Source of the DNA: an uncultured Roseovarius sp.
GTDB lineage: Bacteria > Pseudomonadota > Alphaproteobacteria > Rhodobacterales > Rhodobacteraceae
Assembly (NCBI GenBank): GCA_951812895.1
Contig: OX638333.1
Coordinates: forward strand, 2,081,001 to 2,145,000
Direction of reading: 5' to 3'
Length of the DNA: 64,000 nucleotides
The notes below the pieces were generated by a model. The model was not told where the DNA came from. It made no database searches and saw only the letters and a list, made by a program, of their open reading frames with translations. Below are positions 24,287 through 47,471 of the stretch, piece after piece (within the stretch, counting starts at the first letter, position 1; each line of letters begins with the position of its first letter). The position numbers were made by a program, and so were the translations under genes.

Positions 24287-25480
24287 TTAGCCTTTGACAG
24301 CCGCCACAATCTTCTCTGCGCCATCGCGCAGGTTGTCGGCAGCGATGACGTCGACGTCTGAGCTGTTGATGATTTCTTTGCCCTTCTCGACATTTGTTCC
24401 TTCAAGGCGAACCACGAGGGGAACCTGAAGGCCCACCTCCTTGACCGCGGCGACAACACCCTCGGCGATCACGTCACAGCGCATGATGCCGCCGAAGATG
24501 TTGACCAAGATGCCTTTGACCTGCGGGTCAGAGGTGATGATCTTGAACGCCTCGGTCACTTTCTCTTTGGTGGCACCACCGCCCACGTCGAGGAAGTTGG
24601 CAGGTTCAGACCCGTAGAGTTTGATGATGTCCATTGTGGCCATCGCGAGGCCCGCGCCGTTGACCATACACCCGATCTCACCATCCAGCGCGATGTAGTT
24701 GAGGTCATATTTGGAGGCTTCGAGTTCCTTGGGGTCTTCTTCGGTCACATCGCGCAGCTCGTTAATGTCGGCGTGGCGGTAAACCGCGTTGCTGTCGAAA
24801 CCCATCTTGGCATCAAGGCATTTGAGATCGCCCATATCGGTGACGATCAGCGGGTTGATCTCGAGCATCTCCATGTCCTTTTCGAGGAACATTTTGTAGA
24901 GCGTGCCCATGAGTGCGACGCATTGCTTGACCTGCTTGCCCTCAAGCCCAAGATTGAAGGCGATGCGACGGCCATGGAAGGGCTGATATCCGGTGGCGGG
25001 ATCGACGCTGAAACTCAGGATCTTTTCGGGGGTAGAGGCGGCGACCTCTTCGATGTCCATGCCACCCTCCGTCGAGCAGACAAAGCTGACCCGGCTGGAG
25101 TTGCGATCAACCAGAAGTGCGAGATACATTTCCGATGAGATACCTGCGCCATCTTCGATATAGATGCGGTTGACCTGCTTCCCGGCGGGACCGGTCTGCT
25201 TGGTTACCAGCGTGCGGCCCAGCATCTTTTTGGCTTCATCAGCAGCTTCGGTCACTGATTTGGCCAGACGAACACCCCCGGCCTCGCCTGCGCCGGCCTC
25301 TTTGAATGTGCCCTTGCCACGGCCGCCGGCATGGATTTGTGCTTTAACAACCCAAAGTGGCCCGTCCAGTTCGCCTGCGGCTGTTTTGGCTTCTTCAGCG
25401 CGTAAAACCACGCGGCCGTCAGAAACCGGTGCGCCATAAGAGCGAAGCAGGGCTTTCGCCTGATATTCGTGGATGTTCAT
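24287..25480 (-). CDS. sucC: Succinyl-CoA synthetase, beta subunit
   Basis: A 397-residue ATP-grasp subunit that binds nucleotide and the succinate site. It starts with the canonical [19 protein letters not shown], followed by the ATP-grasp loop [18 protein letters not shown] and the C-terminal [20 protein letters not shown]. The open frame extends to 25606, but family conservation fixes the ATG at 25480. A paired palindrome lies 104 bp upstream, between it and mdh, so sucC probably has its own regulated promoter. Confidence 0.97.
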
Positions 25481-25583
25481 GAAACTGTCCCGTTTTAATG
25501 CGATTGCTTCAGATATACCCACATGTCTGAACGCAAAATAAACGGTTTTTTCAAATAAATGCTGATTCCGGGTGATTTTTGGG

Positions 25584-25622
25584 AATTTGTGATCACACGA
25601 TTGCATGCTGTGATCACAAATT
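25584..25622 (-). promoter_or_regulatory. Paired palindromic operator upstream of sucC
   Basis: AATTTGTGATCACA (25584-25597) and TGTGATCACAAATT (25609-25622) are perfect inverted arms with an 11-bp spacer, and each contains the 10-bp palindrome TGTGATCACA, centred 21 bp apart. Almost the same structure is found upstream of sdhC (33514-33551). Two dimers on one DNA face is the natural reading. The regulator is not identified. Confidence 0.8.
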
Positions 25623-25706: not shown

Positions 25707-26714
<1,008 letters not shown>

Positions 26715-32820: not shown

Positions 32821-33522
32821 ATGGGTGTGTCTGGGCTGATCCGGTGTTTTCTGGCTGTTTTGTGGATTGCGGCAGCGTCGCCTGCAGTCGCGTGCAAAAT
32901 TGCGCTGGTGTTGGCTGTCGACGTGTCTGGGTCGGTCGACAAAGAAGAGTACCGCATTCAGATGCAGGGGCTTGCCGATGGCTTGCGCGACGGAGCGGTT
33001 TCCGAGGCCCTGGTGGCCGGCGAAGGTGCGGTCATGGTGGTGCATTGGTCCGGGTCGTCGCGTCAGGAAGTTGCCGTTCCCTGGACACGGGTGACCGGAT
33101 TTGAGGCTTTGGAAGAGCTTGCCAGCGAAATTGAAGCAGCTCCGCGCAGCTGGCGCAACTTTTCAACTGCGATCGGAGAGGCGTTGCTGTTTTCAGAGGC
33201 ACAGTTTTTGCAGGTGCCTGATTGCGCCAAGAAGGTTATCGATATTTCAGGCGACGGATCGTCAAACGAAGGCATCGCGCCACAACGGGTCAGGCCACAG
33301 CTAAAGGCCGCAGGGATCATCGTGAACGCGCTGGTCATCGAAGGAGCAGAGGCCCGGATGACGGAATATTTCTGGGAAAATGTTATCCTGGGAGAAGGTG
33401 CATTTGTCATTACCGCAAACAGCTATGAGGAATATCCGGATCGTATGCGGCGCAAGTTATTGAGAGAGATTGCCAAGCAGATTTCCAGTTTGGACGCTGG
33501 CGCAGATACAGGCAATTTGTGA
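32821..33522 (+). CDS. DUF1194 / von Willebrand A-like exported protein
   Basis: A 233-residue protein with a signal peptide (MGVSGLIRCFLAVLWIAAASPAVA) and a VWA-type domain; the metal-ion-dependent adhesion site is DVSGSVDKEEY and a second motif is DISGDGSSNEG. DUF1194 proteins are periplasmic with unknown partners. A GTG at 32794 is an alternative start. The TGA stop lies inside the first arm of the sdh operator (33514-33551), so this gene and the sdh regulation share DNA. Confidence 0.85.
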   Translation: MGVSGLIRCFLAVLWIAAASPAVACKIALVLAVDVSGSVDKEEYRIQMQGLADGLRDGAVSEALVAGEGAVMVVHWSGSSRQEVAVPWTRVTGFEALEELASEIEAAPRSWRNFSTAIGEALLFSEAQFLQVPDCAKKVIDISGDGSSNEGIAPQRVRPQLKAAGIIVNALVIEGAEARMTEYFWENVILGEGAFVITANSYEEYPDRMRRKLLREIAKQISSLDAGADTGNL

Positions 33523-33551
33523 TCACAGGCTTTTGCTTGTGGTCACAAATT
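33514..33551 (+). promoter_or_regulatory. Paired palindromic operator upstream of sdhC
   Basis: AATTTGTGATCACA (33514-33527) and TGTGGTCACAAATT (33538-33551) are inverted arms with one mismatch and a 10-bp spacer. The structure is nearly identical to that upstream of sucC (25584-25622). It ends 139 bp before the sdhC start and overlaps the stop codon of the DUF1194 gene. It is the best candidate for the regulatory site of the sdh operon. Confidence 0.8.
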
Positions 33552-33690: not shown

Positions 33691-34074
33691 ATGGCTGACG
33701 TGAACCGGGGCGATCGCCCGCTTTCACCACACCTGTCAATTTATCGACCCCAGATGACATCTATCAGTTCCATCCTGACGCGTATTACTGGCAACGCGCT
33801 GATCGTCGCCGTGGTTCTGATCGTCTGGTGGCTGTTGGCGGCCGCAACCGGGCCGGAGTATTTCGCCATTGCCAACGGCGTGATGACATCCTGGTTCGGT
33901 GATCTGGTTCTGACGCTTTCGCTATGGGCGATCTGGTATCACTATCTGGCCGGTCTGCGGCACCTTTGTTTTGATGCAGGTAGGTGCCTCGAAGTGTCCA
34001 CAGCAGAAATGCTCGGCTGGGGCTGTATCATCGGCTCTGTTGTGCTGACTATTCTGACAATCATCGTAATCTGA
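33691..34074 (+). CDS. sdhC: Succinate dehydrogenase cytochrome b556 subunit
   Basis: A 127-residue membrane anchor of complex II with three helices (about 31-52, 68-90 and 105-126). It shows the SdhC signature RPLSPHLSIYRPQ (9-21) and the heme-ligand region WYHYLAGLRHLCFDAG with His84 the expected axial ligand. The ATG at 33691 with GAAGGGACAGTATCC upstream is preferred over the longer open frame from 33550. First gene of sdhCDAB. Confidence 0.94.
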   Translation: MADVNRGDRPLSPHLSIYRPQMTSISSILTRITGNALIVAVVLIVWWLLAAATGPEYFAIANGVMTSWFGDLVLTLSLWAIWYHYLAGLRHLCFDAGRCLEVSTAEMLGWGCIIGSVVLTILTIIVI

Positions 34075-38421: not shown

Positions 38422-38874
38422 TTACTGGTCCAGCTTGGTTGCAAGCAACGGGGCCAACAAAGTTGTAAGCCTGTCTAGCTGCCCGGGCTTGATCTGGTTT
38501 GCAAAAAAGGAATTCTTTGCAAGCTCCATTTTGTCCGCGGTCAGATTGCTCATCTGCTGTCCGGTTTCGGTGAGAGCTATGAAACTGCTTCGTTTGTCTG
38601 TGGGATTAGGCTCTCGCTCGACAAATCCTTGTTTTTCAAGCCGGTCAAGTAAGCGCGACATTCGATATTGCGGAACCTGCAGCTCTTGTTCCATCTGCTT
38701 GGCGGTAACCTTGCCTGAACCGGTAAGATTAGACACCGCTAACAACAATTGACAGGCTTCAGGTTGTGGAAGACCTGCGTTTTTGAGAGCGGAATTCAAG
38801 TGAGATTCGGCCAGGGCATGGACCTTGAACAAAGCATCCCAAGCGGCGGTTTGAGGAGTGGCTGGCTGGGTCAT
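38422..38874 (-). CDS. MarR-family transcriptional regulator
   Basis: A 150-residue winged-helix protein: dimerisation helices at both ends, recognition region VTAKQMEQELQVPQYRMSRLLDRLEKQGFVEREPNPTDKRS and wing. The ligand is unknown. It is divergent from creD with a 136-bp gap containing a GCATTCAAATGC palindrome, so it may control itself and creD. Confidence 0.87.
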   Translation of the reverse strand: MTQPATPQTAAWDALFKVHALAESHLNSALKNAGLPQPEACQLLLAVSNLTGSGKVTAKQMEQELQVPQYRMSRLLDRLEKQGFVEREPNPTDKRSSFIALTETGQQMSNLTADKMELAKNSFFANQIKPGQLDRLTTLLAPLLATKLDQ

Positions 38875-45504: not shown

Positions 45505-47193
45505 CTACTCAGGCAATCCGGCCGCGCGTAGTCCTTCAACAAATTGATCCCAATCGCCGGGGCGAACCAGTGGCCAGGTTCGCATAGCCCCAAGCGTGAA
45601 ATCCGTTTGGTGTTCGAGCAGGCGGTCGCGGTATTTCTTTGCAAGGTCGTCGTCCCGTAAATGTGCCGCTGCACTTGTCATCAGCAAAAGGTTTCGAGGC
45701 ACGTTTTCAATGTTCTGTTCAACCATTCGCCCCCAATCCAAAACCTCATCGTAGCGGCGCGAGAGCGACAAGCCGAGCATCAGGTATACGGCGTTATGAG
45801 AGAACAGACGCAATCCTTTTAGCGGTTCAATCGCTTTTATCGCAATATCCGTGCCTTGCTGGACCTGACCGCTGCACATCAATGCAGCAGCATGAGCCAT
45901 CTGGCCTTGCGCGTAGTGCGGGGCAGTCTTCATCAGCTGTTCGGCGGCGAACAGAGCACGGGTATGGTTTTCTTCAAGCTCCAGAAAGGCATAGGCCAGC
46001 ATCGTCTGAGCAAAATCGCTGCCTGGGTTAAGGCGTACGGCTTTGCTCAAATACGCAATCGCCTGTTTGCGTTCGTCCTGCGTTGAACTTCGCCAGCCAC
46101 AGTTGGGCTCAATCATGCAAGACATCCCTGCCATGGCGAGCGCACTGGCGTCGTCCTGGTCGCGCTTAAGAACAATTTCCAACAAGGACCGGGCTTCGAC
46201 CCACTCCGGATATGAGAGATCGGACAGCAGACCGCCTGCATGAACCCGAATGGCGCCGCTGTCTTGCTCATGCATCGGCAGATCGGAATTATCCAACAAG
46301 GATGCTTCGTGACGGAAGGCCGCAAACCTGAGCGACGTGCAAATCCGGAGCGCCAAGTCGTCTTCGGCCTCAAAAAGATCAGCAATCACACCATCAAATC
46401 GTTCAGATTTGATCAGTTTTTGGTTTTTCTGATCGATCAACCGAATGGAAGTTCGATAGCGGGCACCGAGAACCTGCATTGAGCCTTCAACCAGCATGTT
46501 GGCTTTCTCGGGGTCAGTCAGAAGAATCATGCCAGTCTGATTGGCGATGGCGGACCTGACCGCCTCACTCACACCATCACACAGTATCCGGGCCTCTTCA
46601 TCACCGGCTTTGAGGTCCAGACCGGCAAATCCCAGGCCGATTTCACGATCCTGGGCAGTTGTTTTCCCGGGTTTCTTATCCTTGGCTTCTGGCGCCACCG
46701 GTGCATCTCTCCATGAGTATGCAACAATTGGGCGTTTAATGTTTTTCAAATCCAGCGCTTGTTCTTCGCGGAATGCATCGGCGAGGCGTCCGTCTAAACT
46801 ATGATACACGACGTCTGAGACAAAGATATTGCCAGGAGAAGCTGCTGCCTCCAAACGCGCGGCAACGTTGACACCATTGCCGAACACATCTTCGTCTTCC
46901 CTGACGACGTCTCCGAGATGAATGCCCATTCGTAATTGGAGCTGGGATTTCTCCGAAGTGCCCGTCTGAACATCAAGCGCGCATTTCACGGCATCCGACA
47001 CTGTCATGAAAGCCACGAGCCATCCGTCCCCCATGCTTTTGACTGTCTCACCTTTATGCCGCGCAACCGAAGGCGTGAACACTTCCGAACGCAACTGTCG
47101 CAATGCTACAAGAGTTGCAGTCTGATCCGCGCCCATCTGCTTCGAATAGCCCACCACATCCGCAGCAAGAATGGCAACGAGCCGTTGTTCCAT
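45505..47193 (-). CDS. Class III adenylate/guanylate cyclase with TPR-like C-terminus
   Basis: A 562-residue protein. The N-terminal cyclase domain (1-170) has metal-binding Asp12 (ILAADVVGYSKQM) and Asp56 (SMGDGWLVAF) and the transition-state pair Asn109/Arg113 (NVAAR), so it looks active. A middle region (about 200-320) recalls the TolB-like part of such proteins, and the C-terminus is alpha-helical with tetratricopeptide-like repeats. This is a frequent Rhodobacterales architecture producing cAMP; the signal is unknown. GGGGAGGAAACGCGGAC precedes the ATG. Confidence 0.88.
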   Translation of the reverse strand: MEQRLVAILAADVVGYSKQMGADQTATLVALRQLRSEVFTPSVARHKGETVKSMGDGWLVAFMTVSDAVKCALDVQTGTSEKSQLQLRMGIHLGDVVREDEDVFGNGVNVAARLEAAASPGNIFVSDVVYHSLDGRLADAFREEQALDLKNIKRPIVAYSWRDAPVAPEAKDKKPGKTTAQDREIGLGFAGLDLKAGDEEARILCDGVSEAVRSAIANQTGMILLTDPEKANMLVEGSMQVLGARYRTSIRLIDQKNQKLIKSERFDGVIADLFEAEDDLALRICTSLRFAAFRHEASLLDNSDLPMHEQDSGAIRVHAGGLLSDLSYPEWVEARSLLEIVLKRDQDDASALAMAGMSCMIEPNCGWRSSTQDERKQAIAYLSKAVRLNPGSDFAQTMLAYAFLELEENHTRALFAAEQLMKTAPHYAQGQMAHAAALMCSGQVQQGTDIAIKAIEPLKGLRLFSHNAVYLMLGLSLSRRYDEVLDWGRMVEQNIENVPRNLLLMTSAAAHLRDDDLAKKYRDRLLEHQTDFTLGAMRTWPLVRPGDWDQFVEGLRAAGLPE

Positions 47194-47471
47194 GTCCGCG
47201 TTTCCTCCCCGTCGGGGAGAAATAACAGACCAGTGGAAAAACACCAGACAGCGACTTCGTGGCAAGAGTTTAAGGACAATGTTTTATCCATCGCCCAGAT
47301 GGGCCAAAGGAGCATTGCGAAGGAATTCCGCGATTTCAGGTTGGTTGATCCGCTTTGGGTTCAGAGTAGACCTTCAGGAGAAACGAGCAGTTTGAAATAG
47401 ATCCAACGTCTGGAACCAAGATGAACGATGTCGGCACACTGCGCGGCACGTAGCGTTGCTTGGTTACGTCC

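Follow-up and report, generated by a model that had tools for sequence, protein, structure and literature searches.

The paired palindromes that precede the sucC and sdhCDAB operons in this Roseovarius genome very probably serve as operators for the Roseovarius AkgR orthologue, a GntR/FCD regulator that would jointly activate the two operons. Comparison across genomes indicates that these twin palindromes are real and conserved across the order Rhodobacterales, and the finding looks largely like known biology, the elements having the appearance of AkgR binding sites. Both pairs lie in the window, by which is meant the whole 64,000-nucleotide stretch of DNA that was analysed. Their coordinates are collected in Table 1 with those of the surrounding genes, several of which were assigned with the help of genome G181, which we take to be Rhodobacter sphaeroides 2.4.1.

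The suc pair reads AATTTGTGATCACA-N11-TGTGATCACAAATT and the sdh pair AATTTGTGATCACA-N10-TGTGGTCACAAATT; the second sdh box, TGTGGTCACA, departs from the 10-mer TGTGATCACA at one position. Box centres are spaced by 21 bp at suc and by 20 bp at sdh, about two helical turns. The suc pair lies in the interval that separates the minus-strand genes mdh and sucC, with the sucC start codon 103 bases further on. The sdh pair, which is followed by sdhC, runs across the stop codon (33520-33522) of an upstream DUF1194 gene. The preliminary description had placed an N11 pair upstream of sucC and a near copy with N10 upstream of sdhC, with boxes about two helical turns apart, and the window sequence agrees with it on each of these points. 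Such an arrangement is far beyond chance. Allowing one mismatch, the window holds six boxes against a mean of 2.23 in shuffled sequences, a count of six being reached by 1 shuffle in 100, and four of the six make up the suc and sdh pairs. Two pairs were seen where a first-order Markov model predicts 0.00016 (each box with at most one mismatch, gap 10 or 11); the same model and pattern give 0.011 pairs for the entire 4.54-Mb source genome. The source genome yields a single pair in which both boxes are exact (gap 8-20), which is the suc pair. Another box of this genome, at 3613819, falls within a long open frame and was dismissed.

Table 1. Features discussed in the text, with window coordinates unless another sequence is named
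Feature	Position	Strand	Details	Basis
Paired operator, sucC operon	25584..25622	-	boxes 25609-25618 and 25588-25597, gap 11	sequence; pair kept before sucC in relatives
Paired operator, sdhCDAB operon	33514..33551	+	boxes 33518-33527 and 33538-33547 (1 mismatch), gap 10	sequence; pair kept before sdhC
sucC, first suc operon gene	24287..25480	-	397-aa frame (tblastn query)	83% identical homologue in G181; name from the preliminary description
mdh, upstream of sucC, same strand	25707..26669	-	320-aa frame	homologue next to sucC in G181, 86% identical; name by synteny
sdhC, first sdh operon gene	33691..34074	+	127-aa frame	65% identical G181 homologue with Sdh_cyt domain
Putative -10 box (TATATC), suc promoter	25512..25517	-	starts 71 bases past second box	by-eye reading of 120 aligned upstream regions; inference
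GntR/FCD regulator gene, outside the window	about G000:C1:750198-750848		GntR and FCD domains	exact single box upstream

TGTGA and TCACA resemble CRP half-sites, and the boxes might on that ground be taken for CRP-like or FNR-like sites. In both window pairs, however, the half-sites abut, and the six-base gap of TGTGA-N6-TCACA is absent from the window boxes, as the preliminary description had correctly remarked; such a site is exceedingly improbable here. Half-sites also abut in the relatives, where this was required by the search pattern and hence offers no independent test. Elsewhere in the window, the frame at 45505-47265 encodes an adenylate/guanylate cyclase catalytic domain.

Within the genus, an exact pair (gap 8-14) occurs in 30 of 36 Roseovarius genomes (29 of 35 without the source genome), and in 31 of 60 genomes overall, the source genome included. 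One genome of another family (G049) has an exact pair with a gap of 12, and the suc and sdh queries found no match there. Relaxed pairs with up to three mismatches, which were tested within the genus only, are found with gap 10 in 34 of 36 Roseovarius genomes and with gap 11 in 34 of 36, at least one of the two being present in all 36. Across the order, the strict pair is carried by 145 of 196 genomes and 66 of 87 genera; it is missing from the other 51 genomes, 48 of which have the regulator described below. A reversed-pattern control run with the pair searches gave no match in any genome row. At least 119 stretches with a pair came from a scan of named genomes, and among those listed all but about a dozen are titled Rhodobacterales.

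Among 153 pair places (149 loci, which are not independent, since at least four genomes seem present in both the relatives and the scan), 120 precede sucC, 22 sdhC and 2 a regulator homologue. Nine places are left. Four of these loci (L076, L140, L164, L171) match the mdh, sdhC or sucC query and have the pair near a locus end, which in our reading reflects incomplete context; the other five (L032, L070, L094, L118, L124) have no match to any suc or sdh query. Of the 142 suc and sdh pairs, 130 have a gap of 11 and 12 a gap of 10, where the search admitted 8-14; the sequence of the gap varies. In 115 of 120 cases the pair precedes the sucC start codon by 95-115 bp. Two records bear unexpected titles: L152, titled Nocardioides marinus, contains both pairs in a suc-sdh region of Rhodobacterales type and looks mislabelled or mixed, and the sucC pair also occurs in L086, which bears the title Maritalea mobilis.

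The suc arms are able to pair over 14 bp, and the 39-bp inverted repeat might form an RNA hairpin, serving as an mdh terminator, an attenuator or a processing site, in place of a DNA operator. In the suc set, positions 1 and 4 of the outer flank indeed pair above the shuffles (value reached by 8 and 13 of 1000). Positions 1 and 5 of the spacer, in contrast, pair below them (value reached by 992 and 999 of 1000), which leaves an excess at two of nine positions and a deficit at two; in the sdh set there is no excess, and no position among the nine stands out, the value being reached by at least 183 of 1000 shuffles. The arms show no uniform compensation, and the hairpin is disfavoured. Also against it, the same box is found singly before a regulator gene, and every box is itself palindromic, which would make the stem a by-product. 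Taken together, a hairpin function is very improbable.

The regulator gene came to light in a box search of the source genome, which found a 14-bp palindrome, TTTGTGATCACAAA, at 750178-750191. The central TGTGATCACA box of this palindrome ends 8 bases 5′ of the start codon of a 216-aa frame, and the encoded protein carries a GntR and an FCD domain. The genome encodes 14 FCD proteins, and for one of them, the regulator, there is an exact box in the 700 bp that precede the FCD match (strands corrected). One other FCD protein has a one-mismatch box, which falls within its own gene, 30 bp ahead of the domain. A MarR-family gene of the window (38422-38874) was set aside as a regulator candidate, having no box in front at up to one mismatch. 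Orthologues of the regulator (E ≤1e-60) are present in 193 of 196 genomes of the order, all of the same family as the source genome, and in 23 of 30 genomes from the scan, at 67-78% identity. A box (at most one mismatch, within 150 bp upstream) precedes 46 of 53 distinct orthologues: all 30 from Roseovarius, where the loci covered 30 of 34 orthologues, and 16 of 23 from elsewhere, the other 7 having none by the same definition. In three of four stretches from other genomes (L255-L257), a distance of 11-17 kb separates the regulator from sucC, and it is on the side opposite to that in G181; the fourth (L258) holds the regulator without sucC. Three of the 196 genomes gave no orthologue match at E 1e-60 (G112, G196, G225), and the strict pair is missing from them as well. 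G196 has a 48% identical homologue and, 60 bp ahead of the match, a box, so that two genomes at most are devoid of the regulator, too few for the co-loss of regulator and pair to be given weight. Further afield, two stretches with non-Rhodobacterales titles (L163, L168) carry regulator homologues, 34-43% identical over the matched part, with an upstream TGTGATCACA pair of gap 13, which suggests that a wider regulator family may use the same box.

The regulator is linked to AkgR through G181, which carries both a suc pair (one mismatch) and an sdh pair, each with gap 11. Its genes run sucA, sucC, mdh, TauE, HpcH, NnrU, MaoC, sdhC, sdhD, sdhA, sdhB and then, after 750 bp, a GntR/FCD gene that is 71% identical to the Roseovarius regulator. 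By its position beside sdh (RSP_0974-6) this gene is presumably RSP_0981, which Imam et al. are said to have equated with AkgR in 2015. The Roseovarius protein would then be the GntR/FCD orthologue of this putative RSP_0981, as judged by position, and GTGATCAC sites are present at the suc and sdh promoters of both the window and G181. In PMC6365646, which cites the work on AkgR, AkgR of R. sphaeroides is described as a transcriptional activator with GTGATCAC among its sites. A literature search with the 10-mer TGTGATCACA gave nothing on bacterial TCA regulation in titles and the beginnings of abstracts. Predicted targets of the GntR protein RSP_0981 are the succinyl-CoA synthetase (sucCD), 2-oxoglutarate dehydrogenase and succinate dehydrogenase genes, at RSP_0967-6, RSP_0965-62 and RSP_0974-6 (PMC4344238). 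The interpretation in the preliminary description hence survives in part. A shared operator answering to one factor for both TCA operons is supported by conservation, by position and by the occurrence of the same box at one regulator gene, and the lack of a CRP gap stands; its statement that no regulator had been assigned to the motif in this group was wrong in light of what these two sources contain (PMC6365646, PMC4344238).

The boxes could instead be read, alone or together with AkgR, by a paralogous GntR/FCD protein. One such protein, encoded at G000:C1:1494201-1494803, is 37% identical to the regulator, and the recognition helices of the two are nearly identical (MTPVREAIRRL vs. MTPAREAVRRL). 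The paralogue is common throughout the genus and occurs widely in other Rhodobacterales as well, and two Roseovarius genomes with intact pairs (G018, G033) matched only the paralogue type in the regulator search, at 38-39% identity, both assemblies being incomplete (86% and 72%). Yet the paralogue has no box (at most one mismatch, within 250 bp before it) in any of five loci checked (L187, L251-L254), and the G181 gene near sdhB is of the regulator type, not the paralogue type. A role for the paralogue is, on balance, unlikely. The same two genomes also count against AkgR, as do 48 of the 193 genomes that have the regulator and no strict pair, and a metagenome-assembled genome titled Robiginitomaculum (G075), which has a pair before sucC (L089) and no regulator match at E 1e-10. 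The shared recognition helix of the paralogue and the lack of a box before the G181 gene and before 7 of 23 non-Roseovarius orthologues weigh on the same side. The assignment to AkgR is retained because the agreement of motif, targets and regulator, taken together, is judged to outweigh these counter-cases.

Under the AkgR assignment, one regulator dimer would bind each TGTGATCACA palindrome. The two dimers of a pair, separated by two helical turns, would lie on one face of the DNA ahead of the core promoter, and both operons would thereby be activated together; the activator role is published for R. sphaeroides (PMC6365646), and we infer it for Roseovarius. The lone box at the beginning of the regulator gene would probably mediate negative autoregulation, and the signal may be 2-oxoglutarate, a guess from the published name AkgR. 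Promoter elements read by eye have a compatible spacing. A TATA-like element lies some 70 bases past the second box in many of the 120 suc regions, preceded by a conserved CGTTTAA-like stretch, and a GTGACA-like element occurs about 55-60 bases past the second box in many of the 22 sdh regions. The window box centres would probably be located roughly 90-120 bp before the putative transcription starts, which fits an upstream activator.

The geometry of the sites may carry further meaning. It is possible, if not quite probable, that AkgR sites fall into two classes: upstream pairs two turns apart that serve to activate suc and sdh, and a lone box at the regulator start that serves repression, with a third box upstream of sdh that could add a DNA loop. 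In 10 of 11 Roseovarius relatives inspected (L278-L285, L291, L292), the sdh pair is preceded, at a distance of 98-113 bp, by a third TGTGATCACA box (at most one mismatch); the sample includes 8 relatives picked for an extra box match, and 2 of the other 3 have the box. In L279, L282 and L284 this third box falls within the DUF1194 gene. The corresponding place in the window, 33405-33414, reads TGTCATTACC and appears degenerate by eye. A different arrangement is found at 493-514 of L289 (from G008), with two exact boxes in tandem and two bases between them. The single box before the regulator gene and the third sdh box in several Roseovarius are possibly new details; a division of AkgR sites by geometry was not found in a literature search limited to text passages from papers other than the primary AkgR paper.

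Rhodobacterales are an important marine group, and these comparisons suggest that joint GntR control of succinyl-CoA synthetase, 2-oxoglutarate dehydrogenase and succinate dehydrogenase is general in the order, not peculiar to Rhodobacter. They also supply a precise, testable operator geometry. With the AkgR regulon, the Roseovarius system shares the GTGATCAC core, the suc and sdh operons as targets, a GntR/FCD regulator and pairs before both operons, as in G181. It differs in that the Roseovarius regulator lies about 1.36 Mb from sdh, whereas the G181 gene sits 750 bp beyond sdhB, and in that a single box precedes the start codon of the Roseovarius regulator, whereas the G181 gene has none at up to one mismatch. 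The LacI-family protein CceR of Rhodobacter and Paracoccus likewise controls central carbon genes in the same bacterial family, but belongs to a protein family other than GntR/FCD; according to PMC11323563, it regulates TCA genes in R. sphaeroides and not in P. denitrificans. PS417_07240 of Pseudomonas simiae, a regulator of deoxyribonate genes, is 32% identical to AkgR and likewise has an upstream GTGATCAC palindrome, but it serves another pathway in another bacterial class, with one proposed site, which spans -47 to -40 relative to the start codon (PMC6365646).
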